From Oscillospiraceae bacterium (GTDB lineage Bacteria > Bacillota > Clostridia > Oscillospirales > Ruminococcaceae), in NCBI GenBank assembly GCA_018110855.1, contig JAGBFZ010000115.1, positions 1 to 25,966 on the forward strand: a stretch of DNA of 25,966 bases, written 5' to 3'. Below, one piece after another: positions 1,314-23,758 of the stretch (its first letter is position 1; every line of letters begins with the position of its first letter). A model generated the notes under the pieces. It was not told where the DNA came from, did no database searches, and saw only the letters and a program-made list of their open reading frames with translations. Both the position numbers and the translations under genes were made by a program.

Positions 1314-1319
1314 ACCGTT

Positions 1320-2399
1320 ATGTCAGATATTTTAAGACTTCCCGCAGAGGAATTATACAAAAACGAGCTTGAATCACTTATTGCAAACGAGAAAAACCCC
1401 GTTCCCGCAGGCTGGAGAATGTCGCCCAAGTCCGTGCTTACATATATCATGGGCGGCAAGTCGGGAAATACAGTCATCACGCCCAAATATATGGGCGACA
1501 GGCGAATTGCCGAGATATGTATCGCCACACTTGTAACAGACCGTGCGCTCCTGCTCATAGGCGAGCCGGGAACCGCAAAATCATGGCTTTCCGAGCATCT
1601 CACCGCAGCTATAAACGGCAATTCATCGAGAGTTATTCAGGGAACCGCAGGCACTACCGAGGAGCAGATACGATATTCGTGGAATTATGCAATGCTGCTT
1701 GCAAAGGGACCCTCTCATGAGGCACTTGTAAAAAGCCCCGTATATAACGCAATGGAAACGGGAACCATTGCCCGAATCGAGGAAATTTCCCGCTGCGCCT
1801 CCGAGGTGCAGGACGCACTTATTTCTATACTTTCCGAAAAGCGGATATCCGTTCCCGAGCTTAACGAAGAGGTCGCCGCAAAGAAAGGATTTTCCATTAT
1901 TGCAACTGCAAATACAAGGGACAAGGGCGTAAATGAGATGTCCTCCGCATTAAAAAGGCGCTTCAATATCGTTGTTCTTCCCGCACCCGCAAATATTGAA
2001 ACGGAAATTGAAATAGTTACAACACGAGTTGCGCAGCTTGCGGACAGCTTCGGACTTAATGCAAAGCTCCCCGACAGAACAGCTGTTGAGAGAGTTGTTA
2101 CCATTTTCAGAGAACTGAGAAGCGGTCAGACCCTTGACGGTCAGGTAAAGCTCAAGACCACATCGGGAGTATTGTCATCAGCAGAAGCCATTTCACTTCT
2201 TATCAACAGCATGGCTCTTGCAGGCAGCTTCGGAAACGGAGAAATAACCGATTCCGATCTTGCAGGGGCACTTCAGGGAGCAGTCGTAAAGGACGATAAC
2301 AAGGACAAGGCTGTGTGGACGGAATATCTTGAGAATGTTATGCGCAAAAGAAGCGGCTGTTCAAAGCTCTATGCCGAATGTAAGGAGAGAAATTCATAA
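1320..2399 (+). CDS. MoxR-family AAA+ ATPase (YehL-like)
   Basis: A 359-residue cytosolic AAA+ ATPase of the MoxR type. The Walker A motif is GEPGTAKS at residues 81-88. The Walker B region is TIARIEEISR (149-158), with Glu-Glu where most AAA+ proteins have Asp-Glu. Sensor 1 is IIATANTRD (193-201), and an arginine-finger-like ALKRRFN follows at 210-216. The C-terminal helical lid has a Lys/Thr-rich sensor 2 area. MoxR ATPases form rings that remodel or activate a target together with a VWA-domain partner, and such a partner is encoded two genes downstream. The start is the first ATG after the upstream stop, with AAAGGA just before it. The stop codon shares one base with the next start (TAATG), so translation is coupled. 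The family call is firm; the target is unknown. Confidence 0.9.
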   Translation: MSDILRLPAEELYKNELESLIANEKNPVPAGWRMSPKSVLTYIMGGKSGNTVITPKYMGDRRIAEICIATLVTDRALLLIGEPGTAKSWLSEHLTAAINGNSSRVIQGTAGTTEEQIRYSWNYAMLLAKGPSHEALVKSPVYNAMETGTIARIEEISRCASEVQDALISILSEKRISVPELNEEVAAKKGFSIIATANTRDKGVNEMSSALKRRFNIVVLPAPANIETEIEIVTTRVAQLADSFGLNAKLPDRTAVERVVTIFRELRSGQTLDGQVKLKTTSGVLSSAEAISLLINSMALAGSFGNGEITDSDLAGALQGAVVKDDNKDKAVWTEYLENVMRKRSGCSKLYAECKERNS

Positions 2400-4636
2400 T
2401 GGCGGCATATTTCGGCGTGCGTCATCTTTCGCCTGCCTGCGCTTATTATGTCAGGGAATTTCTTGACAGAAATGACCCGGAAATAGTTCTGATAGAGGGA
2501 CCTTCCGATCTTAGCCATCTGATAGAACCGCTGTGCAGCGATGAAACGGCAATGCCTGCGGCTATTCTTGCATATACCGAGGAAGCTCCCGTTAAGACAG
2601 TACTATTCCCTCTTGCAGAGTTTTCCCCCGAATATCAGGCGATGAGATGGGCGGTAAAACGGGGCAGAAGGGTAATGTTCTGTGATCTTCCCTCAGACTG
2701 CCTGCTTGCACGTCAGAATGAAGAGGAAAAGCAGGACGAGGATAAGTCTGAGGGGGTTTCCGTTTACACCGAAATGGAAAAAGTCTCGGGAACGGACAAT
2801 GATTCCTTCTGGGAATACACCTTCGAGCAGTGCGAAAGCTATGACGATTTTATTGAAGCGGTTCATGAATACGGAAAAAGCCTTCGTGAGTTTTCCGAAA
2901 ATGACGGGCATAACAGGCTTCGTGAAGCGTATATGCGCAAAGTGATATCCGAATGTGAGAATGAAGTTCCGTCGGAAAAGATATGCGTTATAACAGGCGC
3001 ATTTCATACCGCAGGGATAAAGGATATCCCATTTTCTGATGATGACAGAAAACTTACGGGGAAGCTGCCTTCCGTCAAGGCAAAGGCTACCTTAATGCCA
3101 TATTCCTATTACAGATTATCCTCCCGATCGGGATACGGCGCAGGAAGCAAGGCTCCCGCATATTTTGAGCTTTTGTGGAACAGCAGAATGCAAGGCGTTA
3201 TTGGAAGCAGTGCAAACAGGTATCTTTCCATGATAGCGGCATATCAGCGTGAGAACGGCTATGCAGCGTCTACTGCCGAGGTTATTGAAGCAAAGCGGCT
3301 TGCGGACACTCTTGCTGCCATGCGGGGAGGAAAATATCCCAATATGACCGACCTGCGTGACGCCGCAGTTACCTGCATCGGTCACGGCTCCTTCGGAGAA
3401 ATATCCCTTGCCTGCGCCGATACGGAGATAGGTACAAAAATCGGCTCTCTTCCCGACGGCACAGTCTGCACATCTGTTCAGGAGGATTTTACAAGACAGC
3501 TTAGAGAATTGAAGCTTGAAAAATACAGAAAAGCAGCCGCAGAGGATATAGAGCTTGATCTGCGTGAAAATCTGAGAGTTAAAACCGAAAAGTCTGCATT
3601 TCTTGATCTGAACAGGTCTTTCTTTCTGCACAGACTGCGCATTTTAGGCATTTGCTTTGCGGAGACTCAGCCGAGAAGTCAGGATAATGCCACATGGGCT
3701 GAACGCTGGAGACTGCAATGGACTCCCGAAGCGGAGATAGAGATAGTAGAAGCTTCGCTCAAGGGCGATACCGTAAAGCTGGCGGCAGAATATGAGCTGA
3801 ATATGAAGCTATACGAAGCGGATTCGGTAAATGCTGCGGCAATGATACTTTCCGACGCATTTGACGGCGGACTGACCGACTGCATCTCTACGGCAATTTC
3901 CGCAATTCAGAAGCAGACTGCGGACTGCTCCTCGGCAGAGGACACGGGAAAAACCATCGGAACTCTTTCAACCATTGTCCGTTTCGGAAGTATCAGAAGA
4001 ATAGACACAGAACCTATCTATCCTCTGATGGAAAAGCTGTATCTGAGATTCTGCCTGTGTATGCCATCTGCGGTGGTGTGCGACAGAAACGGGGCAGAGC
4101 TGCTTATAACATCAATGGCGGCTGTGAACGACGCCTGCCTTGCCCATGACTTCCTTGATACCGACAGATTTATCACGCTGCTTTCGGACATTGCGGACAA
4201 TAATTTTGCAAATCCGCTTTTGTCGGGATATTCAGCCGCACTGCTGACAGAGCGGGGAATGATATCTTCCGAAAAGCTGTCCCGGCTGATAAACAGACGG
4301 CTTTCTGCGGGAACTCCTCCTGCGGAAGCGGCACTGTGGTTTGAAGGCTTGGCAAGGCGAAACAGGCGCTCGCTTATCAGCAGGCTTTCGGTATGGGAAA
4401 AGCTCTGCGATTTTGTTTCAAAGCTTGATGATGACGAATTTAAGCCCGTTCTTGTGGCTCTCAGAAGGACATTTTCCGATTTTTCTCCTATGGAAAGATC
4501 AGACATTGCAGAAAATATCGGCGAGGTGCTGGGGATATCAAAGGAAGCGGCGGCGGAGTTCGTAACAATGCAGCTTTCGGGTGATGAACAGCAGTCAATA
4601 GATGAGCTTGATGATTTTGATTTTGGTGATATATGA
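2399..4636 (+). CDS. DUF5682 family protein (YehM-like)
   Basis: A 745-residue protein whose N-terminus (YFGVRHLSPACAYYV, then VLIEGPSDL at about 29-37) is the hallmark of DUF5682 proteins found with MoxR and VWA genes. A second conserved block is ITGAFHTAGI with His203. The pairing of an early G-x-R-H, an acidic IEGP strand and a late G-x-x-H resembles the EreA/ChaN/TraB metal-dependent fold, so an enzymatic N-terminal half is possible (inference). The C-terminal ~350 residues are helical. There is no signal peptide or membrane segment. An AAGGAG site lies 11 nt before the ATG. It overlaps the ATPase by 1 bp and the VWA gene by 4 bp, so all three should be made in fixed proportion. The biochemical function of the family is not known to me. 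Confidence 0.85.
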   Translation: MAAYFGVRHLSPACAYYVREFLDRNDPEIVLIEGPSDLSHLIEPLCSDETAMPAAILAYTEEAPVKTVLFPLAEFSPEYQAMRWAVKRGRRVMFCDLPSDCLLARQNEEEKQDEDKSEGVSVYTEMEKVSGTDNDSFWEYTFEQCESYDDFIEAVHEYGKSLREFSENDGHNRLREAYMRKVISECENEVPSEKICVITGAFHTAGIKDIPFSDDDRKLTGKLPSVKAKATLMPYSYYRLSSRSGYGAGSKAPAYFELLWNSRMQGVIGSSANRYLSMIAAYQRENGYAASTAEVIEAKRLADTLAAMRGGKYPNMTDLRDAAVTCIGHGSFGEISLACADTEIGTKIGSLPDGTVCTSVQEDFTRQLRELKLEKYRKAAAEDIELDLRENLRVKTEKSAFLDLNRSFFLHRLRILGICFAETQPRSQDNATWAERWRLQWTPEAEIEIVEASLKGDTVKLAAEYELNMKLYEADSVNAAAMILSDAFDGGLTDCISTAISAIQKQTADCSSAEDTGKTIGTLSTIVRFGSIRRIDTEPIYPLMEKLYLRFCLCMPSAVVCDRNGAELLITSMAAVNDACLAHDFLDTDRFITLLSDIADNNFANPLLSGYSAALLTERGMISSEKLSRLINRRLSAGTPPAEAALWFEGLARRNRRSLISRLSVWEKLCDFVSKLDDDEFKPVLVALRRTFSDFSPMERSDIAENIGEVLGISKEAAAEFVTMQLSGDEQQSIDELDDFDFGDI

Positions 4637-5787
4637 TGGATAATAAGGAAATACTGAAACGCTGGCGGCTCATTCTGGGAGCGGACAGCGAAAAGATGAT
4701 GGAGCAGATGGGCGGCGCAGCGGCACTTTCTGCAGAGGAAATGCTGATGGACAGTGCGCTTTCGCAGATATACGGAAATGACGGAGCGGGGCTTTCGGGC
4801 AGTGCGGGCAGAGGTTCTTCCTCACCGAAGCTGACAAAATGGCTGGGTGATCTGCGCACTCTTTTTTCTCCTATGGAGATAAAGGTGATACAGAATGATG
4901 CCATTGAGCGCAAGGGCTTGAAGCAGCTTCTTTTCGAGCCTGAAATGCTGGATTCCATCGAGCCGGATATAAATACAGCCTCTCTTCTTCTTATGCTCAA
5001 GGATCAGATACCGCAGAAGTCAAAGGACAATGCAAGAGCATATATTGCAAAGATAGTGGAGGATATAAACCGCCGCCTTTCGGATGACATAAAGCGTTCG
5101 GTCACATCTGCTCTCAACAGGAGAAATCATTCTCCCATACCATCGGCGGCGGCACTTGACTATAAGCTGACCATAAGGCGGAATCTGAAAAATTTTGATA
5201 CAAAGTCAAATACTATCATGCCTGAGAGATTCTATTTTTACGAGAGAGCTTCCCGCTCTGCTTCAAGGACTGTTATCATTGATATAGACCAGAGCGGCTC
5301 CATGGGCGAATCTGCAATTTATTCCTCTGTGGTGGGGTGCATACTTGCAAGCATGAATTCCCTCAAGACCCATGTAGTCGCATTTGATACCAATGTTACC
5401 GATCTTACCGAGCATTGCTCCGACCCTGTGGAGCTTCTGTACGGAATACAGCTGGGCGGCGGAACAGACATTGAAAAATCGGTTGCATACTGCACAGAGC
5501 TTATCGAGGAGCCCGAAAAGACAACAATGTTTCTTGTTACCGACCTTTGTGAGGGCGGAAACAGAAACGGACTTATCAGAAGGCTGGGGGAACTGAAGGA
5601 ATCGGGCGTGAATCTGGTGATACTCCTTGCCATATCAGACAGCGGAAAGCCTATGTATGATGCAGCTTTGGCAGATAAGGCGGCGGCTCTTGATATTCCC
5701 TGCTTTGCCTGCCCTCCCGAAAGACTTCCCGAGCTGCTTGAAGCGGCACTCAAGAAACATTCGCTCAAGGCATTCGAGCAGAAATAA
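4633..5787 (+). CDS. VWA-domain protein, MoxR partner (YehP-like)
   Basis: A 384-residue protein with a helical N-terminal half (about 1-205) and a von Willebrand factor A domain (about 210-370). The metal-ion-dependent adhesion site is complete: DQSGS with Asp219, Ser221 and Ser223, then Thr278 in GGGTD, and Asp304 in LVTDLCEGG. Soluble VWA proteins of this type bind Mg2+ and act as the substrate-binding or effector partner of a MoxR ATPase. The start is fixed by a 4-bp overlap (ATGA) with the upstream gene. A strong hairpin terminator follows 29 bp after the stop, so this is the last gene of the operon. No secretion signal is visible. Confidence 0.9.
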   Translation: MMDNKEILKRWRLILGADSEKMMEQMGGAAALSAEEMLMDSALSQIYGNDGAGLSGSAGRGSSSPKLTKWLGDLRTLFSPMEIKVIQNDAIERKGLKQLLFEPEMLDSIEPDINTASLLLMLKDQIPQKSKDNARAYIAKIVEDINRRLSDDIKRSVTSALNRRNHSPIPSAAALDYKLTIRRNLKNFDTKSNTIMPERFYFYERASRSASRTVIIDIDQSGSMGESAIYSSVVGCILASMNSLKTHVVAFDTNVTDLTEHCSDPVELLYGIQLGGGTDIEKSVAYCTELIEEPEKTTMFLVTDLCEGGNRNGLIRRLGELKESGVNLVILLAISDSGKPMYDAALADKAAALDIPCFACPPERLPELLEAALKKHSLKAFEQK

Positions 5788-5999: not shown

Positions 6000-6044
6000 A
6001 TAGACGGCAAATGGTGCCTTCTTTCAACCTTCTAAAAAGCAATG

Positions 6045-6091
6045 ACAAATACCTCCTATGGTTCTATAATGCCACAGGAGGTTTTGTTTTT
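6045..6091 (+). terminator. Terminator-like hairpin in the intergenic region
   Basis: The left arm 6045-6061 (ACAAATACCTCCTATGG) pairs with 6072-6087 (CCACAGGAGGTTTTGT), with one bulge and one mismatch, and a U-rich run follows. It lies about 190 bp after the previous terminator with no gene between, so it either ends an unannotated short RNA or acts as a backup or leader terminator ahead of the kinase operon. Confidence 0.65.
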
Positions 6092-6334: not shown

Positions 6335-9061
6335 ATGGAATACACCGATATTGTTACAAACAAAAAGACTGCGGCGAAATTGGCATTACTGATTTTTTTG
6401 TTTTGCACATTTATTATGTGTTCAATTAGCATTTTCAGCGGATGGAGATCATGGGTCATCAAAATGCTTTTGCTCCATGCTGCTGTGCTGACAGTAATGT
6501 CCTTTCACCCGAAGGCAACAGCCAGAGTGCAGTCTGTTCTGCTCATGCTGTTTTCTTTTTCTAATATATTTATCTGCAGTGTGATGGAGAATGATATTTA
6601 TCCTTCTATTGCAGTTTTTATGGGTGCAGCAATACTTATATCCGTTTACAAGGACTCAAAGCTGCTGCTTGGGTATGTACTTCTCATTGCGGGTGCCATA
6701 TTGTTTCATATTTTTGTATTAAACAGCGTATGTTTTGATATGATGATCGATGTTACGCATTTTATTGTAAGGATATCAGTCATGATAACTGCTCTGTTCT
6801 TTCTTATCGTGTTTATCAGAAGCATGGATAAAAACGAGGAGAAGCTCAGACAAAGCGTGGCGGAAGCAAGGCAGGCTGAGCATTACAAGTCGGATTTCCT
6901 TGCCAATATGAGCCATGAGATACGCACTCCCATGAATGCTATCATCGGAATGTGCGAGCTTATCCTTCGTGAAAACGGGCTTAGCGAGAGCGTAAGGGAA
7001 AATTGCTTCAACATTCAGACCTCCGGCAGAAGTCTGCTTTCCATCATTAACGATATCCTTGATTTTTCAAAGATCGAATCGGGAAAGCTGGAGCTTATCC
7101 CCGATGAATTTAATATTGCTTCCACCATTAATACCGTTATAAATATGTCCGAGGCGAGAAAGGGCAATAAGAAGATAGACATTATCGTTAAGGCTGATCC
7201 AGATATCCCAAGAGGAATTATCGGAGATGAGGTTCGTATAAGGCAGGTCATCGTCAACCTTATGACGAATGCGGTCAAATATACCGAAAGCGGATTTGTC
7301 ACCCTTACCGTATCCCATACAAAACAGCCCTACGGCATAAATCTTTCAGTTTCGGTTGCAGATACGGGAATTGGTATTTCCGAGGAAAATATTGAAAAGC
7401 TTTTCACCAGCTTCCGTCAGGTGGATACAAAAAAGAATCGCTCTGTTGAGGGAACGGGACTTGGTCTTGCCATTTCCAAGCGTCTTGTCAGTCAGATGGG
7501 CGGATTTATCAATGTAAAGAGTGAATATGGTTCAGGCTCTGAATTCAGCTTTGTAATACCTGTCAAGGTCTCGGATGATAAACCCTTTATCACAGTCAAG
7601 GATCCGCAGAAAATACATACGGCAGGATATTTCGGCAGCTCAGGGAAGAATGGGATTTATGAGAAGAATTTTACAGGAATGGGAGAACAGCTCCATGTGG
7701 ATTTCAGATGCTGCGGCAGCGACAGCGAATTGAAAGCAATGGCTGACAGCCGTGAGTTCACCCATTTCTTCGTCGGCAAAGATGAATACATAGCCAATGC
7801 TGAGCTTTTGGGTGAAATAGCTGACAGATCAGACGTCTTTGTTATTCAGGAAAGAATGGACGCTATCAATCTTCCCAATAATATCAGATGCATTTACAAG
7901 CCGTTTTATATCATTTCTGTGGTGTCGGCGCTCAATCATGAAAATATCGTGTTGGATCTCAATGAGCGCAGAGGTTCGGATATCCGTTTTTCCGCACCCA
8001 AAGCAAGAATTCTTATCGTTGACGATAATGCTATCAACCTCAAGGTCGCTGTGGGACTTATGCAGCCCTATCATATGCAGGTCATGACTGCCGAAAGCGG
8101 TGCTGCGGCTATAAATATGCTTCGTTCAAAGGATATAGATATCGTGTTTATGGATCATATGATGCCCGGAATGGACGGCGTCGAGGCAACAAGGATAATA
8201 AGAGAGATGGATGGCGATTATTACAAGAAGCTGCCCATCATCGCTCTTACCGCCAATGCCGTAAACGGCGTCAGGGATATGTTCATACGGGAAGGTCTTA
8301 ACGATTTTCTTGCAAAGCCCATCGAGCTTTCCGCTCTTGACAGGATGCTGCGGTATTATCTCCCGAAGGAATACATACAGGCTCCCTCCGCTTCGGACTA
8401 TGGGGCAGGGGACAGGCGCAGAAATGCCAAAACGGCGGGCAATGAAAGCTCGGCAATGTTTGATCCCGATAAGGGGCTTATGTACACAGGCGGCAGCATG
8501 GAGGCATACCGTGAGATACTTGAGCTTTATGTGAAAAAGGGTCCCGAAAAAAGAGCGCAGATCGGCGGGCTGTTTGAGAAAAAGGACTGGAAAAATTATA
8601 TCATCGAGGTACACGCTCTGAAAAGCACATCTATGAGCATAGGCGCTGTAAAGCTCTCAGAGCTTGCAAAGGAGCTTGAAGCCGCAGGAAAGTCAGGAAG
8701 CTACCGCACCATCGAAAAGAAAAACGGAACTCTTTTAAAGCTTTACGGCGAGGTAATGGATATTATAAAGGATTTTCTCGGCGGGGACAAAAATGAAGCC
8801 AATAATAACGGCGAAGAGAAGCAGATCATCGAGCTTGCGGAAATATCCGAGGATAAGCTTTCTGAATATATAAGCAGTGCAAAGGAAGCCTGCAGCAGCT
8901 TTGACGGCGATGCTATGAAGGAAATTGCCGAAGCCGTTTCGGGATATTCATTCAGGAACATACCCCTTTCGGAATATTTCGGCAGGGCGGCAGAGCTTGC
9001 GGAGGATTTTGAATACGATTCCGCAGAGGCAGAGATATCAAAGCTGGAAGCGGAACTGTGA
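6335..9061 (+). CDS. Membrane hybrid histidine kinase with REC and HPt domains (HK1)
   Basis: A 908-residue hybrid sensor kinase. The N-terminal ~165 residues form five or six membrane segments with almost no extracellular part. A HisKA domain follows (H-box NMSHEIRTPMNA, phospho-His194), then the HATPase domain with N-box RIRQVIVNLMTNAVKYT, G1 DTGIGI and G2 GTGLGLAIS. Residues ~428-540 look like a degenerate receiver lacking the acidic pocket. A complete receiver is at ~555-670 (VDDN, phospho-Asp607, Lys in AKP). The HPt domain is at ~705-815 (His760 in EVHALKSTS). A ~75-residue helical tail ends the protein and is shared with the second kinase in the operon. The start is fixed by an in-frame TGA just before ATG; AAAAGG lies 14 nt upstream. 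The signal sensed is unknown and may lie within or near the membrane. Confidence 0.93.
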   Translation: MEYTDIVTNKKTAAKLALLIFLFCTFIMCSISIFSGWRSWVIKMLLLHAAVLTVMSFHPKATARVQSVLLMLFSFSNIFICSVMENDIYPSIAVFMGAAILISVYKDSKLLLGYVLLIAGAILFHIFVLNSVCFDMMIDVTHFIVRISVMITALFFLIVFIRSMDKNEEKLRQSVAEARQAEHYKSDFLANMSHEIRTPMNAIIGMCELILRENGLSESVRENCFNIQTSGRSLLSIINDILDFSKIESGKLELIPDEFNIASTINTVINMSEARKGNKKIDIIVKADPDIPRGIIGDEVRIRQVIVNLMTNAVKYTESGFVTLTVSHTKQPYGINLSVSVADTGIGISEENIEKLFTSFRQVDTKKNRSVEGTGLGLAISKRLVSQMGGFINVKSEYGSGSEFSFVIPVKVSDDKPFITVKDPQKIHTAGYFGSSGKNGIYEKNFTGMGEQLHVDFRCCGSDSELKAMADSREFTHFFVGKDEYIANAELLGEIADRSDVFVIQERMDAINLPNNIRCIYKPFYIISVVSALNHENIVLDLNERRGSDIRFSAPKARILIVDDNAINLKVAVGLMQPYHMQVMTAESGAAAINMLRSKDIDIVFMDHMMPGMDGVEATRIIREMDGDYYKKLPIIALTANAVNGVRDMFIREGLNDFLAKPIELSALDRMLRYYLPKEYIQAPSASDYGAGDRRRNAKTAGNESSAMFDPDKGLMYTGGSMEAYREILELYVKKGPEKRAQIGGLFEKKDWKNYIIEVHALKSTSMSIGAVKLSELAKELEAAGKSGSYRTIEKKNGTLLKLYGEVMDIIKDFLGGDKNEANNNGEEKQIIELAEISEDKLSEYISSAKEACSSFDGDAMKEIAEAVSGYSFRNIPLSEYFGRAAELAEDFEYDSAEAEISKLEAEL

Positions 9062-9153
9062 ATGCTTTCTGTCCGAAAATATCATGAGCTGTATAACGTC
9101 GGTATTGCTTTTTTTGAAAAATAACATCATAAATGAAAAATGAGGAGGATACT

Positions 9154-10557
9154 ATGAAAAATATTCTGATCGTAGATGATAACAAGATAAACCTCGCTTC
9201 TGCCCGCAAGGTGCTCAGCGGTGAATACAAGGTAATTCCCGTAATGAGAGGCGAGCAGGCGCTCACTTACCTTGAAAACGGTGAATGTGACATTATCCTG
9301 CTTGATATCAATATGCCCGAAATGGACGGCTTTGAAGTGTTGGACAGAATAAAGCAGATGGAACGCTGCAAGCATATTCCCGTTATTTTCCTTACGGCTG
9401 ACAATGATTCCGAAACTGAGACCCGCTGCTTTAAGGAGGGTGCTGTGGATTTTATCGCAAAGCCCTTTGTGACCGAGGTCATGCTTTCAAGAATAAGCAG
9501 GGTGCTGGAGCTGGAGGAGCTTCGCCGCAGCCTTGCTGACAGGCTTGAGCAGAAAACAAAAGAGGTCTCGGATATTAAGAGCAAGTCCCGTCAGGATGCA
9601 CTTACGGGTCTCTGGAACAGAGCGCACACTGAGGAAACGGTCAACGCCATGATCTCCGAGGGCGTAAGAGGCGCTCTGATGATGATAGATATGGATAATT
9701 TCAAGGCTATCAACGATAATTACGGTCATATCGCAGGTGATCAGACGCTGAAAATGTTTGCCGACACTCTGAGAAAATTTTCGGAAGAGGGAGACATTCT
9801 CTGCCGTATCGGAGGAGATGAATTTGTGGTTTTTGCCAAGGATCTCTCTTCGAAAAGCGAGATCGGCAACCGTGCTTCCGATATAATTTCCGATCTGTGC
9901 TATAATCTGGAGCAGTGCAAATTTGAGACAAATTCTTCGGTATCAATAGGCATTGCCCAGACTCCCGATGACGGAACGGAGTTTAACAAGCTTTATAATG
10001 CGGCAGATAAGGCGCTTTATTATGTAAAGCAGAACGGTAAAAATTCTTATCACTTTTTCAGCGACCAGAACGAATCCGAGAAGAAGCGTGCCTCAAAGAG
10101 CGTTGATCTTGCATATCTGAGCGAGCTGCTCAGCCGAGCAGACAGCGGAAAGGGAGCATATCTTCTTGATTTCGACAGCTTCCATCATGTGTACAATTTT
10201 ATCAAAAGATTCGTCAGCCGAAGCGGCAGAGAGGTGCAGACCATTCTGTTCACAGTTATTCCTGCCGATGGCGTAAGCGAGCCGGCTCCTGAGGAAGTTG
10301 AGGCTGCGTTGGAGATGCTTGATAAGGCAATATACACATCTCTCAGACGTGTCGATGTTTCTACCAGATATTCAAGCAAGCAGATAATCGTTATACTTAT
10401 GGACGCCAACACCGAAAACGGCGACCTTGTTGCAAAGAGGATAATCAGCTGCTTTGAAAAGCTGTACATAGGCGGACAGCTGAAGATCGAATACGGGATC
10501 GCAAAGATGGAAGGCAATAACATTTTAGGCAAGAATCCTGACAGCGCATCCTTATAA
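9154..10557 (+). CDS. Response regulator with GGDEF domain (predicted diguanylate cyclase) and pseudo-cyclase tail
   Basis: The start chosen is the ATG at 9154, because GAGGAGG (9142-9148) lies 5 nt before it; an in-frame ATG at 9133 has no such site. The 467-residue protein has a receiver (VDDN, phospho-Asp51 in LLDINMP), a short coiled linker (DRLEQKTKEVSDIKSK), and a GGDEF domain with intact DALTGLWNR and GGDEF at 220-224, so it should make c-di-GMP from GTP. The RxxD product-inhibition site five residues before GGDEF reads EEGD, with its Arg lost. Residues ~315-455 look like a second cyclase fold in which the signature is replaced by TRYSSKQ, so it is presumably non-catalytic. It lies 92 bp after HK1 and 41 bp before HK2, and is the likely phosphorelay output of both. 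Confidence 0.92.
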   Translation: MKNILIVDDNKINLASARKVLSGEYKVIPVMRGEQALTYLENGECDIILLDINMPEMDGFEVLDRIKQMERCKHIPVIFLTADNDSETETRCFKEGAVDFIAKPFVTEVMLSRISRVLELEELRRSLADRLEQKTKEVSDIKSKSRQDALTGLWNRAHTEETVNAMISEGVRGALMMIDMDNFKAINDNYGHIAGDQTLKMFADTLRKFSEEGDILCRIGGDEFVVFAKDLSSKSEIGNRASDIISDLCYNLEQCKFETNSSVSIGIAQTPDDGTEFNKLYNAADKALYYVKQNGKNSYHFFSDQNESEKKRASKSVDLAYLSELLSRADSGKGAYLLDFDSFHHVYNFIKRFVSRSGREVQTILFTVIPADGVSEPAPEEVEAALEMLDKAIYTSLRRVDVSTRYSSKQIIVILMDANTENGDLVAKRIISCFEKLYIGGQLKIEYGIAKMEGNNILGKNPDSASL

Positions 10558-10598: not shown

Positions 10599-13500
10599 TT
10601 GAAGAAAAACAGAATAAAATTCAGCGGCAGTTATCGGGCAGCGTTATTCATGATAATGCTTGCTCTCGGAATAATTATCGTGATGAATGTCATTCTGATA
10701 AGGCGTGCAGAAACACAGCAGATCGAAGCCGAGGGTCAGACAAGGCTCAGCAGCATTGCAGGACGTGTTGATAACAGCCTTTACCGTTCAGAGTGTCTCC
10801 TTGACAGCGTGGCTTTGCAGGTAGAACAGATCATTTCTGTAAGCGACAATGCGTCCGAGCTTCTTGATAATTATTTCTGTTCCGAGACTATTGCAGATAT
10901 AAACAATAGATCTGACGGAAGCTGTTTCAGCGCTTATGCCGCTTATAACGGCGAGCTGTATATAAATGATTTTGTCCCCGACGAGGATTTTGTGCTTGAT
11001 GAACGTTCATGGTATATGGGTGCAAAAAAACGTATGGGTGCTGTCCATGTTACCGAGCCGTATATTGACGCAAGCACGGGGGAGATGTGTTACAGTATCT
11101 CTAAGCTGCTTTCCGACGGCTCAACTATTGTGGGACTTGATTTCAATCTCAGTGAGATACAGCATTATATCGAAGAGATGAATGCAAACGGGTCTGGAAC
11201 GAGCTTTATTGTTGATGCCAACGGCATGATCGTGGGACATTCCGACTCGGATAATATCGGCAGGGATTACAGAGAGCTGGATTTTTATTACGAGCTTGTC
11301 AATAAGGTATTTATGCTTTACGGTCATTCCTTCGATTACATATCCGACGGCATAAGATACAATGTTTTTTCCGATAAGACCAATTATGACTGGTATCTTG
11401 TTGTCTGCGTAAAGCGGGGCGAGGAATATTCCGTTCTAAGTGGCAATTCATTATACATAGCTGTGTTCACTCTTATTCTTGCGACTGCTGTTGTTATATT
11501 CTTAATTCATACCTGCCGCAGCAAGGCGGAAGCGGAAAACGCACTGGCTGAAAAGGACAGATTCCTAAAGGATATGAGCATTGAGCTGAAGCGTCCCCTT
11601 TCAAGGATCATAAACCGTGCCGATATCCTAAGCAGCTCGGTTGAAAGCGGCAGCACAGCAGCCGAGATAGGCGATTCGGCAAATGAGCTGAACCATATGC
11701 TTGATGATCTGTTTACTGAATCTGTCGCCGAAAATCCCAAGAATAAGGAGAAAGAAAATAAAAATGTCAGCAAAAGTCCTGTCAACCATGTGATAAGGAT
11801 AGCTCTTGTCACCTTTGTGCTTGTGGTTACAGGCGTGGTCACATTTATCTTCAATACAATGGCATATTCCGAGCTTGGCGGCGTCAGAATGGAGCAGGAG
11901 ACAGAGATTTATCTCAATCAGGTCAGGGACTGGGCACTGACAAACAAAACAGTTCTTGATGTTATCTCTGACAGCATTGTCGCTCAGCCGGGGTTTGCAG
12001 ACGATTATGATTCGGCTGTTGCATATCTCGACAGCATTGTATCAAAATATGATGATATTTCAGTGGCATATATCTGCAATCCCAAATGGGAGCATACGGT
12101 GATCATGAACAACGGCTGGGAGCCTGATGAAAACTGGCACGTTGAAGAGCGGCAGTGGTATGTTGATACTCTTGATTCAAAGCAGAATTTCAATGTATCG
12201 GTACCCTATCTTGATGAGCAGACAGGTCTTTACTGCACAACTCTCAGTAAGATCGTTTATGATGACAAGGGCAATTTTATCGGCGTTCTGGGCATTGATT
12301 ATTACCTTGACAAGCTCATAGGTATTCTGGGCGAAAGCTATACCGACAGGGAATATGCCTTTATTACCGACATTGACGGAAATATCCTTAATCACCCCAA
12401 TGAAGAATACCAGATGAAGCCCGGCTATTCGGTGAATGCTGCCGATATCTGTTACAGATCAGCTCTATCTGAGATCGACAGTGATTTTGTTATTTTCACG
12501 GATTATGACGGTGTTCAAAAAAGCTGCCTTGCTATGAAGGAGGATATTTCCGGATTTAACGTTTTTGTGGTGAGAAGCCTTTACGATGTAGCAGGAAATG
12601 CGATCATTTCCGATCTGATCTACATAGGCGTGTTTATTTTGTGTATAGTTATTGTCAACGCTATCATGTTAAGCCTTACCCGCTGGCAGGCAAAGGTCAA
12701 CAAGGAGCTGAAGGAGGCTGCTGACAAGGCGATAAGTGCAGGCAAAGCCAAAAATGATTTCCTTGCAAATATGAGCCATGAGATCAGAACTCCCATAAAC
12801 GCTGTTCTTGGCATGAATGAAATGATAATGCGGGAATCAAGCGAAAAGCAGATCGTGGAATATGCCGCAAATATTCAGGGCGCAGGCAGGACGCTCCTTT
12901 CAATTATCAATGATATTCTTGATTTCTCGAAGATCGAATCGGGCAAGATGGAGATAGTTCCTGTCTCATACGATGTAAGCTCCCTTATTAACGATATTGT
13001 CAATATGGTAAGGATCAGAGCGGAAAAGAAAAAGCTCAAGTTCATATACGAAATTGATGAAAATATCCCGTCTGTGCTTTACGGAGACGATGTAAGGCTC
13101 AGGCAGATAATTACCAATATCCTTACCAATGCGGTGAAATATACTCCCGAGGGATATGTCCGCTTCAGAATGAATGTAGTTCAGACAGAGAACGATATTG
13201 TGCGTCTGGCAGTAAGCGTGACAGATACGGGAATAGGTATCCGTGAAGAGGATATGGATAAGCTGTTTGCTTCGTTCCAGCGTCTCGATCAGGAAAAGAA
13301 CCGCAGTGTTGAGGGTACGGGACTTGGTATGTCCATCGTTCAGCGGCTGCTTAATATGATGGGAAGCGAGCTGAAGGTCTCCAGCGTTTACGGCTCAGGC
13401 TCTACCTTCTCCTTTGAGATAGAACAGCAAGTTATAAAGGCTGAGCCTATCGGTGGTTTTGAGCAGCGCTTCAAAGCGGCTGCTTCTCAGCAAAGCCCCG

Positions 13501-14567
13501 ATACTGTTTCCCGTATTGCTCCGAATGCAAGGATACTTGTGGTTGACGACAACGAAACAAATCTGCTTGTTGCGAAGAGCCTGCTCAAACGCACAATGGT
13601 AAGGCTTGACACGGCTGTAAGCGGTTCCAAGTGTATTGAGCTGCTGAAAAACAACAGCTATAACATTGTATTCCTCGATCATATGATGCCTGAAATGGAC
13701 GGTATCGAGACCCTGAAAAAGATCAGGGAGGAAAATATTGCGAGGGATACCTGCTTTATTGCTCTTACGGCAAATGCTATCCATGGTGCGAGACAGAATT
13801 ATCTTGACGCAGGCTTTGACGATTATCTTTCAAAGCCGTTTACAGGCGTGGAAATTGAAAAGTGCCTTTTCGGTCATCTTCCCGAGAGCTTATGGGAATA
13901 TGTCAAGATGTCGGAGAATGACACATCGAAGCCTGAGCCTGAGAATGATGAAAAGGAAAGCAGCACACTTTTCAGCCCCGAGGAGGGTGCAAAATATACG
14001 GGCGGGGACGTTGAGGCATATAATGAGATACTTGCGCTGTATGTCCGCAAGGCTCCCGAGCTTTCCGAGCGCATAAAAAGGCTTTTTGAAGAGAAGGACT
14101 GGAAAAATTATGTTATCGAGGTCCACGCACTGAAAAGCTCGTCTCTTAATGCAGGTTCAAGGGAGCTTTCCGAGCTGGCAAAGGAGCTTGAGCTTTCGGG
14201 CAAGGCGGGAAATTACGCTGTTATTGAAGAAAAGAACGCCGAGCTTCTTGCTCTTTACAAAAAGGTTGCCGAGCTTGGAAAGGAATATCTGGGTGAAACA
14301 GAAGATACGAATGAGGATACCCGTGATGAAAATGAGCAGCTGACAGAAATTGCGGCGGAAAAAGCAAAGGAATACTTCAATGCGATCAAGGACGCCTGTC
14401 TTGCATTCGATTCTGATGAAGCAGAAAGGCTGTGCGGTGAGATATCGGGCTGTTCGGTAAACGGCGAACCTCTTAAACCCGTGCTCAATGAAATAATTTC
14501 GGCGGCAGAGGATTTTGAGTATGAAGCTGCTGCCGATACAGCGGAAAAGTATGCCGAAAAGCTTTGA
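10599..14567 (+). CDS. Giant hybrid histidine kinase with two Cache sensor modules, REC and HPt (HK2)
   Basis: The TTG at 10599 is preferred: AAGGA (10584-10588) lies 10 nt upstream, but only 1 nt before the in-frame TTG at 10590. The product is 1322 residues. Domains in order: TM ~13-33; dCache ~35-285 (R136-x-W138-Y139, Asp181); TM ~287-308; a helical DHp remnant ~310-390 with H-box DMSIELKRPLSR, in which the phospho-His is Ile328; TM ~398-420; second dCache ~425-670 (R518-x-W520-Y521, Asp567); TM ~672-693; complete HisKA (His727), HATPase (G1 DTGIGI, G2 GTGLGMS), REC (Asp1027 in FLDHMMPE), HPt (His1176 in EVHALKSSS), and the same ~75-residue tail as HK1. This looks like a fusion of a truncated kinase to a complete one. 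The Cache residues resemble an amino-acid-binding pattern (inference). It is the last large gene of the operon. Confidence 0.92.
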   Translation: MKKNRIKFSGSYRAALFMIMLALGIIIVMNVILIRRAETQQIEAEGQTRLSSIAGRVDNSLYRSECLLDSVALQVEQIISVSDNASELLDNYFCSETIADINNRSDGSCFSAYAAYNGELYINDFVPDEDFVLDERSWYMGAKKRMGAVHVTEPYIDASTGEMCYSISKLLSDGSTIVGLDFNLSEIQHYIEEMNANGSGTSFIVDANGMIVGHSDSDNIGRDYRELDFYYELVNKVFMLYGHSFDYISDGIRYNVFSDKTNYDWYLVVCVKRGEEYSVLSGNSLYIAVFTLILATAVVIFLIHTCRSKAEAENALAEKDRFLKDMSIELKRPLSRIINRADILSSSVESGSTAAEIGDSANELNHMLDDLFTESVAENPKNKEKENKNVSKSPVNHVIRIALVTFVLVVTGVVTFIFNTMAYSELGGVRMEQETEIYLNQVRDWALTNKTVLDVISDSIVAQPGFADDYDSAVAYLDSIVSKYDDISVAYICNPKWEHTVIMNNGWEPDENWHVEERQWYVDTLDSKQNFNVSVPYLDEQTGLYCTTLSKIVYDDKGNFIGVLGIDYYLDKLIGILGESYTDREYAFITDIDGNILNHPNEEYQMKPGYSVNAADICYRSALSEIDSDFVIFTDYDGVQKSCLAMKEDISGFNVFVVRSLYDVAGNAIISDLIYIGVFILCIVIVNAIMLSLTRWQAKVNKELKEAADKAISAGKAKNDFLANMSHEIRTPINAVLGMNEMIMRESSEKQIVEYAANIQGAGRTLLSIINDILDFSKIESGKMEIVPVSYDVSSLINDIVNMVRIRAEKKKLKFIYEIDENIPSVLYGDDVRLRQIITNILTNAVKYTPEGYVRFRMNVVQTENDIVRLAVSVTDTGIGIREEDMDKLFASFQRLDQEKNRSVEGTGLGMSIVQRLLNMMGSELKVSSVYGSGSTFSFEIEQQVIKAEPIGGFEQRFKAAASQQSPDTVSRIAPNARILVVDDNETNLLVAKSLLKRTMVRLDTAVSGSKCIELLKNNSYNIVFLDHMMPEMDGIETLKKIREENIARDTCFIALTANAIHGARQNYLDAGFDDYLSKPFTGVEIEKCLFGHLPESLWEYVKMSENDTSKPEPENDEKESSTLFSPEEGAKYTGGDVEAYNEILALYVRKAPELSERIKRLFEEKDWKNYVIEVHALKSSSLNAGSRELSELAKELELSGKAGNYAVIEEKNAELLALYKKVAELGKEYLGETEDTNEDTRDENEQLTEIAAEKAKEYFNAIKDACLAFDSDEAERLCGEISGCSVNGEPLKPVLNEIISAAEDFEYEAAADTAEKYAEKL

Positions 14568-16866: not shown

Positions 16867-19800
16867 TTATTCATCTGATCTCTTTCTGCGGCTTTTCTTT
16901 TTCCTGTTGACCACCGCTCCGCAGGCAGCAAGAGCAGCAGCTGCCGCGCAGGATAGTCCTGCGATAAGAGAAACATTCACAGGTCTTTCATAAGCTGATA
17001 TCACAAGTGTGCCGCCTGAAGCCGTAAAGGTGACATAGCTTCCGTCCGTTTCGCAGGGAACTTCGCATCCGTCTATCTCAACAACGGTTTTTTTCGGGTC
17101 GGAAACAGGCAGAAAGCGGATAAGCCGCTCGGTGTTTTCGTCCTCGGGAATGTGCAGCTCCCATTTTTCGTTTCCAAGGTCATTAAGCTCCAGCCTGTCA
17201 GAATCGGTAAAGCTGCCCTCAGCCATGAATACGGGAGAGCCGTTTTCTCTTGCAAGCTCTGTGGAGATCGTGGTGACATAGGGAATATATTCGGCATTTA
17301 TTACTGCGCCGTATGTCATATCCGAATAGTCATGCTCCTCCCACTTTGCAAAATAACCGTTTTTGCGGGGCGCAGCGGGGATATCGCTTTCAGAAAGTGA
17401 CTCGCCGTATTTAAACTCAATTATATCGACTACCTTATCCTCAGCCATAAAGGTAAGGGTCAGGGTCTTGAATTCCTCAGGAATGCCTTCCATTGCTATC
17501 ATAGCCTTGTAGGGAACAGGAAATGCCTTTCCGCTGAAACTTATCCCGTCAACCGCTCCCATGCCGTTTTCGGCAAAAATATTTCCCTCAAGCACGCCGT
17601 CGCATTCTCCCGCAACAGCACCCGAATATTCATCGGACATATCTATGGAAACATAGCTCATGCAGCTGCTTATATCATGTCCCTCACCTGCGATACCGCC
17701 TACATGATCGTCTCCCTCAAGGCGGCACATTGCATAGCTGCCGAATATTGCGGCAGATGATCTTCCGGCAATGCCTCCCACATAGCTGCCGTCTGTGGAG
17801 CGAACATTACCCAGATTTTTTGAAGAAATAATGCAGCCTGTATCCATGCTTCCCGCAATTCCGCCCGCTCCGTCCTTCTTGGAGGTGATAATTCCGCTGT
17901 TCTCACAGCTTCTCACCACAGTTCTTGACTGATACATAAAATCAAAGGAGCGGTCGCCTATCTGCTCGATATCCTCCTCGGGGTCGAAGGAATTTTCCAC
18001 GCCCATTGCTCCCGCAATGCCGCCTGCGTTAACATCGGCAAAAATGCTTCCCGTATTAATGCAGGAGGCAAGCTTTCCGTCAGCCCTTCCTACGGAATCC
18101 GAAGCGGAAATATCCTCGGTATAGTCCGCAAGGCTTCTTGAATCCTGTGAAAGCTCGTCTGTCATATCAAGGATAACATCATAAACCTCCGAAGCCTTGC
18201 TGTTCACAGCTTTAAGGTCCTCGGAAATAATATCTACCGAATCTCCCGCAGAGATATTCAGGATATCAAGGGTGTTGAACAGGGCTTCAAGATCACCTGT
18301 AAGGTCTTTGCGGATATTTCTGAAATTATTGTCTGTGCCTGTGAATTCTATCTTTTCCTTTCCCGCAAAATAATCGGTGATATCATGGAGATAGGAAAGC
18401 CCGTCAGACAGATACACCGAGCCGTCCTCGGCATACTGAACAGCCTCCTCGGCACAGTATGCCGCTTCAATTGCTGCAGCTGCGCTGTCATCAAGGAAGG
18501 GCCATGCTTCCTTTATCCTGTCGGTCACAGAAACAGCGGAAGCACCCGCTTCGTCCAGCCCCTCGGAGGATCTCATAAGATGATCTATTATCTCATTCAG
18601 ACTGTCAAGGGTAATATCATCGGGGATATCGCCGCTTTGGGGAACAGATGCATTTGCCTGCCCTTTTATTGATGATGCGCAGCGCTCAATTTCATCCTTT
18701 GCGCTTTGTGCGGCAGAGGAGTCTATAAGCATTCTCATTCCATCGGTAAGGTCTGAAAAAGCCTCAAACATATTTCTAAGTGAACCGTCCGTAAAAATAT
18801 CAAGCAGATCGCTGATGCAGCTCTTGTATGCCCCGGGATCGTCAATATCACGGTCAAGCAGATCCTGAAGCTGCCTGATAGTAAATTCCGCATTGCTGAT
18901 ATTATCAGATATCCTGTCGGCACTGTCGCTGATCGCAGCAAGGCTGTCCTTGATCTTTCTTACTGCTTCCTCGGTTTCCGGAGATGAAGAATAATCATCA
19001 AGTGCAATAAGAGCATTATTTACGATGCCGCTTATGGACTGAACAGACTGACCCAGAATAAACAGACGGCTTTTCAGGTCGTTCAGAGACGCAGAAATGC
19101 CGTTGGGGTCTCCGATAGAGCTTTGAACAGATGAAAGTCCGTCCTGAAAGGAATCGTTTGCCTCACGCATTGCTTCGATGGCAGCTGAAAGCTCGTCAAG
19201 CACGGGGAAGAGGATATCGAAGGCTTCGTCGCTGCTCTCCATGGACTGTGCAAGCAGATCGTTTGCCGCCCACAGGCTGTCTGTTGCTTCGGTAAAAGAG
19301 TCCGACGCCTTGGAAAAGCTGTCGGCAGCAGGCTCTGACATATCTATAAGGTCAGATATGCGTGAGCTTAGCTCATTCAGAGAATCTATATTTGCGTTCA
19401 GAACAGAATCCGCTTCGTCAATAAGCCTGTCTGAGCTGCTGCGGACTGATTCAAGAGCATCGAGTGCGCTGTCCATATCTCCCGAGAGCCTGTCTGATGA
19501 ACTGTTTGCATCGGATATGGTCTTGTCGATAAGCTGATTCATCTCATCGAGCCTGTCTCTGAGCTTGTTTACAGAGGATTCGGAAAAAAGCAGGGAGAAA
19601 TGAGGCTCTGCCTGACCGACGATACCTCCCACGTCCTTTCTTCCGTTGATAATACCGCTGTTTTCACAGCCGCTTATGTAGCCGTTCTGCCGTCCGCAGA
19701 TACCGCCGATATTGTAGCCCACATGGGGATAGCCGACCTTTCCCTTATTTGTGCATTTCATGATATTGCCCGAGGAATAGCCCGCAATGCCGCCTGCGTC

Positions 19801-20550
19801 TGTGGAATCTGCCGCCTTTTCGGTGGAATATATATCATCTATATTCAGGCTTTCAAGGTCAAGGGAATTGTCGGAAGCATTTGTATTTACGGAAACTGAG
19901 CTTTCGCTGAGCATGATACAGCCCCTGTTTTCACCCGAAATTCCTCCTGTGAAATGCTCCGCCTGAATGCGTCCGCTTGCAGTGCAGCAGGAGATAAGAG
20001 CGGTCTCCTCATTTACTCCTGCTATTCCTCCGCAGTATTCCTTGCCCGTAACAACACCGTCAAAGGTACAGCCGTAAACGGTCCCGCGGTTTACTCCCAC
20101 AATGCCGCCGCATTTTGACGAGCTTCCCGAGGGGGATATTTTGCAGGAAACATTTATATTTTTTACCCTGCCGCTTTTTTCGATATACCTGAAAAGTCCC
20201 TGAACAGAGCCGTTTGATTCAATTGAAAAGCCGCTTATCTTATGTCCGTTTCCCTCGAATATTCCGCTGAAGGAGGGCACGGGGATAAAGTCCAGATCTG
20301 AGGAGGAGAAATTGATATCCGTGTTCAGAATAAAGGTCTTTCCCACAGAATAGCTGTCAAGGGTGCAGAGCCTTGCAAAGCTGACAAAGTCCTCCGCTGA
20401 ATTTATATAAACAGTGTTTGCATTTTGATCTGCAGCAGCGGACAAATTAACGGAATTATCCTCCGCATATACGGAAAATCCGCCGCAAACAGGGCTTGCC
20501 GCAATGATCACCGCAAGTGCGCAGGCAGCGCAGCGTTTTATATGATTCAT
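16867..20550 (-). CDS. Wall-exposed GLUG-repeat/coiled-coil protein, partner of the MMPL exporter
   Basis: A 1227-residue exported protein. It has a signal peptide (1 to ~30, cleavage likely after SVYA) and GLUG-type beta-solenoid repeats (~75-320, many GGIAG/GGIVG motifs). A long helical, Ser/Asp-rich region follows (~325-815, LRDRLDEMNQLIDKT onward) with coiled-coil-like spacing. GLUG repeats then resume (~820-985), followed by an InlB-repeat-like module (~1030-1090), a beta-rich stalk, one C-terminal membrane helix (~1192-1214) and a basic tail (RKKKSRRKR). There is no LPXTG motif, so anchoring is by the membrane. AAAGGAGG lies 10 nt before ATG, inside the exporter gene, and the two genes overlap by 4 bp. 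The helical part recalls YhgE/Pip and EsaA/YueB extracellular domains, though I cannot show homology. Function unknown; it is likely part of the export machine. Confidence 0.85.
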   Translation of the reverse strand: MNHIKRCAACALAVIIAASPVCGGFSVYAEDNSVNLSAAADQNANTVYINSAEDFVSFARLCTLDSYSVGKTFILNTDINFSSSDLDFIPVPSFSGIFEGNGHKISGFSIESNGSVQGLFRYIEKSGRVKNINVSCKISPSGSSSKCGGIVGVNRGTVYGCTFDGVVTGKEYCGGIAGVNEETALISCCTASGRIQAEHFTGGISGENRGCIMLSESSVSVNTNASDNSLDLESLNIDDIYSTEKAADSTDAGGIAGYSSGNIMKCTNKGKVGYPHVGYNIGGICGRQNGYISGCENSGIINGRKDVGGIVGQAEPHFSLLFSESSVNKLRDRLDEMNQLIDKTISDANSSSDRLSGDMDSALDALESVRSSSDRLIDEADSVLNANIDSLNELSSRISDLIDMSEPAADSFSKASDSFTEATDSLWAANDLLAQSMESSDEAFDILFPVLDELSAAIEAMREANDSFQDGLSSVQSSIGDPNGISASLNDLKSRLFILGQSVQSISGIVNNALIALDDYSSSPETEEAVRKIKDSLAAISDSADRISDNISNAEFTIRQLQDLLDRDIDDPGAYKSCISDLLDIFTDGSLRNMFEAFSDLTDGMRMLIDSSAAQSAKDEIERCASSIKGQANASVPQSGDIPDDITLDSLNEIIDHLMRSSEGLDEAGASAVSVTDRIKEAWPFLDDSAAAAIEAAYCAEEAVQYAEDGSVYLSDGLSYLHDITDYFAGKEKIEFTGTDNNFRNIRKDLTGDLEALFNTLDILNISAGDSVDIISEDLKAVNSKASEVYDVILDMTDELSQDSRSLADYTEDISASDSVGRADGKLASCINTGSIFADVNAGGIAGAMGVENSFDPEEDIEQIGDRSFDFMYQSRTVVRSCENSGIITSKKDGAGGIAGSMDTGCIISSKNLGNVRSTDGSYVGGIAGRSSAAIFGSYAMCRLEGDDHVGGIAGEGHDISSCMSYVSIDMSDEYSGAVAGECDGVLEGNIFAENGMGAVDGISFSGKAFPVPYKAMIAMEGIPEEFKTLTLTFMAEDKVVDIIEFKYGESLSESDIPAAPRKNGYFAKWEEHDYSDMTYGAVINAEYIPYVTTISTELARENGSPVFMAEGSFTDSDRLELNDLGNEKWELHIPEDENTERLIRFLPVSDPKKTVVEIDGCEVPCETDGSYVTFTASGGTLVISAYERPVNVSLIAGLSCAAAAALAACGAVVNRKKKSRRKRSDE

Positions 20551-23018: not shown

Positions 23019-23051
23019 GTGCTTCACTCCTTGATGATGATTTATTTAAAT

Positions 23052-23182: not shown

Positions 23183-23758
23183 ATGCCAAAAAATTCGTCC
23201 GACTCAGCCGCAAGATACAGGCTTGCCGAAGCACTGAAAAAACGGCTTTCATATATGCCTCTGGAAAAAATAACCATAAAGCAGCTTACTGATGACTGCG
23301 GTCTTAACCGTCAGACCTTTTATTATCATTTTGATGATATTTACGACCTCCTGAAATGGCTGTTTGAATGGGAGGCGGAAACGGCAGTGCATTTACATGA
23401 TGTTTCCGTTTCATGGAAGGATACCATGAGGAAAATGCTTAAATATCTTTCGGATAACAAGCGTTTCTGCGTATCGGTGCTCAATTCGGTGGGACATAGG
23501 CACGTCAGCAGATTTCTTTTGGATTTCATGTCCACCCTTACAGAGAAAATTATTTCGGACTGCATGGAGGAATACGGCATTGCTCCCGCCGAGTCCGACA
23601 GGGAATTTGCGGATTTTTTTATTGACTTTTATTCGGGAGCGGCAGCGCTGATGATCGAGCGCAGGCTCCTTGACGAGATAAAGCTCACCGACGATCAGCT
23701 TATCGCCTATATTGAAAAAATTGCCGTAAACAATATCAAAGGATATTACAGCCTGTGA
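23183..23758 (+). CDS. TetR/AcrR-family transcriptional regulator
   Basis: A 191-residue DNA-binding protein. The N-terminal helix-turn-helix (~32-60, ITIKQLTDDCGLNRQTFYYHF) is typical of TetR proteins. The C-terminal ligand or dimer domain (~75-185) is like that of the DhaS-type subgroup. AAAGG lies 12 nt before ATG. It is divergent from the MMPL exporter operon with a 164-bp gap, the usual arrangement for a repressor of an efflux or export operon that also controls itself. The ligand is unknown. No clear terminator follows in the 130 bp after the stop. Confidence 0.88.
   Translation: MPKNSSDSAARYRLAEALKKRLSYMPLEKITIKQLTDDCGLNRQTFYYHFDDIYDLLKWLFEWEAETAVHLHDVSVSWKDTMRKMLKYLSDNKRFCVSVLNSVGHRHVSRFLLDFMSTLTEKIISDCMEEYGIAPAESDREFADFFIDFYSGAAALMIERRLLDEIKLTDDQLIAYIEKIAVNNIKGYYSL

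Follow-up and report, generated by a model that had tools for sequence, protein, structure and literature searches.

HK2 of an Oscillospiraceae bacterium, a hybrid histidine kinase with two dCache sensor modules joined by a DHp domain without its phospho-histidine

Receptors of the PctA/KinD type carry one dCache domain per chain, whereas HK2, the hybrid histidine kinase described here, carries two. HK2 is a protein of 1322 amino acids encoded at positions 10599–14567 on the forward strand of a 25,966-nucleotide contig (JAGBFZ010000115.1, assembly GCA_018110855.1) from an Oscillospiraceae bacterium, and this whole stretch of DNA is referred to as the window. RcsD is a membrane phosphorelay protein with an HPt domain and a dead kinase region. 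This pseudo-histidine kinase domain is what RcsD has in common with HK2; to our knowledge, the RcsD chain is without an active kinase, unlike HK2. BvgS/EvgS-type kinases resemble HK2 in that a single kinase, equipped with REC and HPt domains, bears two extracellular sensors, and both of these tandem Venus-flytrap sensors lie in one periplasmic region. HK2 departs from the BvgS type in that its sensors are dCache domains, each with its own pair of transmembrane (TM) helices, and a cytoplasmic pseudo-DHp lies between them. According to one report, DivL, a pseudo-histidine kinase of Caulobacter, has Tyr in place of the phospho-His (Ala in one homologue), works in vivo without kinase activity and binds phospho-DivK through the docking face of its DHp, where the residues at +3, +7 and +12 were tested (PMC4211667). 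DivL also carries a CA domain of its own and PAS sensors, neither of which belongs to the pseudo-DHp of HK2, and it is not known to combine its dead DHp with an active kinase module in one chain, as HK2 does. The literature compared includes PMC9540692, PMC3762810, PMC13269768, PMC8534201, PMC5829827 and PMC6023141. DivL and BvgS are the nearest described kinds known to us, and no description of two TM–dCache modules joined by a pseudo-DHp was found among the titles and abstract openings listed in searches of open-access literature, a scope mostly outside subscription papers.

The order of HK2 is TM–dCache–TM–DHp1–TM–dCache–TM–HisKA–HATPase–REC–HPt, as assigned by Pfam and by sequence and hydropathy, which bears out the original prediction of this order with two complete dCache sensor modules. 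The gene begins with TTG, and the alignments of relatives begin at the same start. The four TM helices, recognized in the sequence and by hydropathy in relatives (as peaks for TM1), lie at about residues 15–36 (TM1, 10641–10706), 283–306 (TM2, 11445–11516), 399–424 (TM3, 11793–11870, where the second module begins) and 670–694 (TM4, 12606–12680), respectively. When the N-terminal half was searched, Pfam placed dCache_1 at residues 37–269 (10707–11405) with 52.0 bits (cutoff 45). With the whole protein, Pfam found dCache_1 at 458–602, within a second sensor that extends over about residues 425–660 (11871–12578), followed by HisKA at 717–782 (DHp2, 12747–12944), HATPase_c, the CA domain, at 829–943 (13083–13427), Response_reg, the REC domain, at 979–1088 (13533–13862) and Hpt at 1143–1220 (14025–14258). 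In the C-terminal half, the HisKA phospho-His (H727), the N, G1 and G2 boxes of the CA domain, the REC phospho-Asp (D1027) and the HPt phospho-His (H1176) were all intact, which places this half among the hybrid histidine kinases. None of the best 25 of 123 NCBIfam families reached its cutoff with HK2.

DHp1, the hairpin between TM2 and TM3, comprises residues 309–376 (11523–11726), and Pfam found no HATPase domain between it and TM3, as had been predicted. Alignment of this middle segment to HisKA, proposed earlier as a check, revealed DHp homology. Pfam HisKA matched residues 319–374 of HK2 with 28.6 bits (cutoff 26.9), and the excised segment scored 32.5 bits. Among the species genomes of GTDB, 56 loci with a family gene were located, of which 51 were used for the analysis of DHp1 (L047, L057, L066, L081 and L087, at a contig edge, short or interrupted, were omitted; L099 was counted although it is without DHp1). 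The segment aligned to window residues 305–392 was 86–98 residues long in 50 of these 51 loci and 29 residues long in L099, and 33 of the 51 single segments matched HisKA at E ≤ 0.01. A profile of the 51 segments matched, by sequence, the PDB entry 7z8n, CpxA, DivL, ethylene response sensor 1 and RetS with E-values of 1.3e-7, 6.6e-6, 7.2e-6, 2.9e-5 and 4.4e-4, respectively, and more weakly 2c2a with 0.012. When the same segments were aligned by hhalign to four active DHp sequences, the probability was 96.2, with an E-value of 2.8e-9 over 69 columns. By these matches DHp1 is a relic of a DHp domain. Tested as a working HisKA, it lacks both the phospho-His, which is Ile328 here, and a CA domain to follow it.

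To follow the phospho-His column, two sets of proteins were used. A protein search with residues 1–450 gave 68 clusters at E ≤ 0.001, including the window's own protein (P0002), and these are called the window's branch; a search with L069, from an uncultured Eubacterium sp., gave 310 clusters, many of them named Lachnospiraceae, of which 120 were listed (P0076–P0195, the Lachnospiraceae-type set). The searches scored 8000 and 7997 candidates, respectively, and all counts cover the listed proteins, 188 clusters in total. DHp1 was 63–71 residues long over the 188 clusters. Its phospho-His column was filled in all 188 and was His in only two (P0017 and P0033), so that the His is replaced in 186 of 188, the replacement that marks DivL; in DHp2 the corresponding residue was His in 187 of 188, with one gap. 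The window's branch had Leu in 22, Tyr in 18, Ser in 6, Glu in 4 and Ile in 3 of 68 clusters, besides others, and the Lachnospiraceae-type set had Gly in 87, Ala in 14 and Ser in 8 of 120, besides others. The Ile codon of HK2 itself (ATT, 11580–11582), on which the original prediction was based, was confirmed; as a conserved state among relatives Ile was rejected, and the conserved feature of the column is, across these alignments, the loss of His. The flanks were kept: of the 188 clusters, 173 retain Pro at +5 and 160 retain Glu at +1. In a FastTree of the 68 proteins built with the DHp1 columns excluded, the His column underwent at least 27 changes, ranking fifth of 70 columns, while the residues at +1 to +5 underwent at least 5, 7, 9, 12 and 9 changes, respectively; the His site thus drifts in the window's branch while its flanks are held. 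Retention of an ancestral His in P0017 and P0033 was considered and rejected, because the two occupy separate tips of the tree (2 changes), which suggests that the His was regained. In L051 the His codon at this column is CAT, which differs by a single base from TAT, the common Tyr codon found in L052.

In helix 2 of DHp1, the listed Lachnospiraceae-type proteins have His358 in 115 of 120 and Gln370 in 118 of 120, a pattern that does not generally hold for the window's branch. Phosphorylation of DHp1 on another residue, namely Tyr, Ser or this His358, might draw on these counts and on the frequency of Tyr in one branch. However, in 130 of the 188 clusters the residue at the column is Leu, Gly, Ala or Ile, and Gly and Ser prevail at position 358 in the window's branch, and we regard such phosphorylation as highly improbable.

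Both dCache domains of HK2 matched PctA-type chemoreceptor domains in the PDB. PctA residues R126, W128, Y144, D146 and D173 have been tied to AI-2-binding (autoinducer-2) dCache_1 domains (PMC7584622), and all of these but D146 also to receptors for amino acids (PMC10104139). The same five positions of PctA/KinD-type dCache_1 receptors are present in both modules, as R136, W138, Y155, D157 and D181 in sensor 1 and as R518, W520, Y537, D539 and D567 in sensor 2. All five residues were found in 187 of 188 listed clusters for module 1 and in 188 of 188 for module 2. Both sensors look alive, with predicted pockets of the amino-acid/AI-2 class. Retention of HK2 as a two-input receptor, as first proposed, is thus supported by the conservation of both ligand sites and of DHp1 in the listed relatives.

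The strength of selection was compared among the segments of HK2 by the mean ratio of nonsynonymous to synonymous differences (pN/pS). With pS at 0.61–0.84, near saturation, so that only the order of the values counts, pN/pS of dCache1, DHp1, the linker, dCache2 and DHp2 was 0.19, 0.38, 0.58, 0.17 and 0.06, respectively, in the window's branch (45 pairs) and 0.40, 0.39, 0.51, 0.29 and 0.14, respectively, in Lachnospiraceae-type loci (120 pairs). By this order DHp1 is under constraint, tighter than the linker and looser than the active DHp2. The linker between DHp1 and TM3 is a charged segment (residues 377–398, 11727–11792) with the highest mean entropy among the segments measured. The periodicity of DHp1 was mixed. 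In the window's branch, the conservation of helix 1 had a period of 3.55 (12 of 1000 shuffles as strong) and the hydropathy of helix 2 a period of 3.5 (2 of 1000); in the Lachnospiraceae-type set helix 1 was periodic by both measures (19 and 3 of 1000).

We consider it moderately probable that HK2 is a phosphorelay receptor for two inputs, with a dead DHp1 that holds sensor 1 in dimeric form and relays the state of this sensor to the active module. Two separate dCache sensors per chain would lie outside the cell, each on its own TM pair. DHp1 would be a membrane-near helical hairpin, probably forming a four-helix bundle in the dimer and not phosphorylatable at the usual site; it would convey the conformational state of the first sensor to the second module, and DHp2 with its CA domain would be the sole catalyst. 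We infer that phosphate passes from His727 of DHp2 to Asp1027 of REC, then to His1176 of HPt and finally to the neighbouring REC-GGDEF protein, so that two ligands, fitting pockets of the amino-acid/AI-2 class, may jointly set cyclic di-GMP (c-di-GMP). Several observations weigh against a specific relay through DHp1. In the window's branch the constraint on DHp1 was about half of that on either dCache domain (pN/pS 0.38 vs. 0.19 and 0.17, of which the order is what counts), and the DHp1–TM3 linker was the least conserved segment measured, which disfavours a rigid relay into TM3. Helix 1 hydropathy and helix 2 conservation (entropy) showed no periodicity in the window's branch (165 and 969 of 1000 shuffles as strong, respectively), and helix 2 periodicity was weak in the Lachnospiraceae-type set (83 and 68 of 1000). 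Furthermore, 18 of the 51 single DHp1 segments had no match to HisKA at E ≤ 0.01, and the DHp1 of P0066–P0069, L092, L100 and L101 is, by eye, far diverged. Finally, two loci keep both sensors without DHp1, L099 (genome G003), where it is lost, and L133 (G258), where it is missing by reading, so that DHp1 is not indispensable.

Because DHp1 is missing from L099 and L133 and conservation is lowest, among the segments measured, in the linker to TM3, the main rival is that DHp1 is a spacer or dimer clamp, which holds both TM–sensor modules and carries no specific signal. Its conservation would then reflect helix packing, and L316, I337, I357 and L364, which likely belong to the core, are indeed among the most conserved positions. 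Against the spacer speak the retained Glu at +1 and Pro at +5 and the H358 and Q370 of the listed Lachnospiraceae-type set; moreover, non-core sites in the window's branch changed less after the His column than before it (mean 13.4 vs. 19.9, Mann-Whitney p 0.028, with a core set chosen post hoc). We take the spacer to be possible, if on the doubtful side. DHp1 might instead have been retained throughout the family's past as an allosteric switch within a double receptor. Sensor 1 would then move a DHp that accepts no phosphate and that, by docking CA or REC, gates the real kinase, the His having been lost specifically to stop wasteful phosphorylation and the H-box surface kept; this we hold to be unlikely. 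A docking decoy of the DivL kind, which would bind REC (its own or that of the REC-GGDEF protein) or CA without being phosphorylated and under the control of sensor 1, is by a shade less likely still. For such a decoy speak the precedent of DivL, with Tyr for His and phospho-DivK bound through the DHp docking face (PMC4211667), the profile match of DHp1 to DivL, the Tyr that 18 of 69 rows have at the column (rows that include P0002 twice), the retained Glu and Pro and the Lys or Arg at +3, Ser at +7 and Arg at +12 that are common in the window's branch. However, +3, +7 and +12 are highly variable in the 120 listed Lachnospiraceae-type proteins, DHp1 has no CA domain, unlike DivL, and its partner would be hypothetical.

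The relay reading of HK2 places it in an ancient and conserved family of two-input hybrid kinases and includes an origin by fusion, in which a dCache kinase truncated where its DHp hairpin ends would have been joined in frame to an intact dCache hybrid kinase from a different lineage. In two quick IQ-TREE runs, the N modules formed one clade and the C modules another (99 and 100), and the inner order of the two clades largely matched by eye, which makes one origin probable. N modules grouped with single-module dCache kinases, whereas C modules fell among other kinases and among chemoreceptors (97), and the His of the H-box was kept in 11 of 11 fetched single-module kinases near the N modules. 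In a FastTree of 161 modules the N modules were a clade (0.991), as were the C modules except that of L133 (0.911); the C group that includes the L133 module also contained three single-module kinases (0.737) and is less clear than in IQ-TREE. Origin of both halves by tandem duplication of one module would agree with their common plan and similar spacing, and with the sparser tree (77 rows), where forcing N and C together cost 25.2 log units and was not rejected (approximately unbiased (AU) test, p 0.084), a result that weighs against fusion. In contrast, the denser tree (62 rows, with more of the near kinases) rejected it, with a log-likelihood 39.4 lower and an AU p of 0.000539, and the separate affiliations of the N and C modules also oppose it, with long branches in play. 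We therefore read the trees as favouring fusion and not as proof; one in-frame fusion of two dCache-kinase lineages is most likely, in line with the original prediction that a 3'-truncated kinase gene was fused to a complete one, and a duplication is very unlikely. One of these 11, L167:1182-3485 (minus strand), a single-module relative of the N half, has dCache, HisKA with its His, REC and a weak HPt, and no HATPase (CA) domain was found in it by Pfam. Since it keeps the His, the loss of CA alone does not explain the lost His, in this one case.

The 56 loci carry the labels Oscillospiraceae, Lachnospiraceae, Ruminococcus, Butyrivibrio, Selenomonadales and other Clostridia, with one fragment of a Treponema metagenome-assembled genome (MAG). 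Homologs with the same domain order, whose existence was to be checked, are present among the listed relatives, and with the 56 loci they rule out that HK2 is an isolated accident. The distribution of the family is patchy. The N half matched 6 of 20 genomes of the window's genus, its own included (E ≤ 1e-40). In wider scans, which scored just 4–6 candidates in most genomes, so that members may be missed, matches were found in 14 of the 299 genomes taken from another family (≥319 bits, in frames of 977–1366 amino acids), 2 of 391 of a class sample (>300 bits) and 1 of 398 of a phylum sample, the window's own genome (E ≤ 1e-60). A search with the N half alone gave six proteins, none of them a clean N-half gene standing by itself; P0070–P0072 were close, ended soon after TM2 or TM3 and had a short or foreign-looking tail, and the other three were distant dCache proteins.

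An artefact of sequencing or assembly, or a gene decaying in one genome, might be suspected, as the window's assembly is fragmented (455 contigs) and a congener, G009, has a decayed copy. We consider this a negligible possibility: the same architecture occurs in listed clusters and in records not titled as MAGs, namely Ruminococcus albus KH2T6, Butyrivibrio LC3010 and Butyrivibrio INlla16, and the catalytic motifs of the C half are intact. The copy of HK2 in G009 (L034/L045, G009:C30) has an internal stop and a large loss from sensor 1 to REC, whereas the adjacent copy of HK1 can be aligned from end to end. The family gene L066:7935-11243 (plus strand), from a GC-rich rumen MAG, is interrupted by two in-frame TAG codons, each flanked by homologous sequence on either side, and a further TAG lies in the GGDEF frame next to it (L066:5431-7266, plus strand); PylS was below the cutoff in L066. 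Reassignment, readthrough or decay are possible explanations of these codons.

HK2 is likely the last gene of a three-gene unit on the forward strand. HK1 (6335–9061), a hybrid kinase with HisKA, HATPase, REC and HPt by Pfam, is the first gene, and a REC-GGDEF response regulator (9133–10557), the likely output, lies 41 bases upstream of HK2 and 71 bases downstream of HK1. A promoter-like site upstream of HK1 (6042–6070, forward strand) had 11 of 12 matches to the consensus, a match by consensus only, in a region where 27 such sites were found and 18.4 expected. L046 has the same three genes in the same order, with copies of HK1 and REC-GGDEF that are 81% and 91% identical, respectively. Kin of HK1 with 57–59% identity adjoin HK2 in L048, L049, L050, L053 and L056; in L048 and L053 HK2 comes first, followed by a hybrid kinase, whose kinase part is 57% and 59% identical to that of HK1, respectively, and then by REC-GGDEF (about 73%). 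Neighbours were taken as the longest plus-strand frame within 700 bases in 44 loci, some of which may not be genes. Downstream of HK2 relatives, such frames (n = 41) had a receiver in 25, GGDEF in 9, HD in 3 and kinases in 8, and upstream (n = 35) a receiver in 6 and GGDEF in 3. With these GGDEF and receiver neighbours, c-di-GMP would be the output.

Elsewhere in the window, a four-gene run (48–5787) encodes HEAT-like (weak), AAA_5, DUF5682 and VWA CoxE-like proteins. On the reverse strand, 16867–23027 encodes an MMPL transporter and a partner of 1227 amino acids of no clear family, adjoined by a TetR-type regulator at 23183–23758 on the forward strand. A search of the window against Rfam gave no match above the gathering score.

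HK2 would naturally separate the two jobs of a DHp domain, phosphate acceptor and conformational relay, with one copy for each in the same chain. Natural variants are at hand in L099 and L133, which are without DHp1, and in P0017 and P0033, which have His at the column. The HK2 family would thus make DHp signalling without phosphorylation directly testable, and it may offer a plan for two-input receptors.

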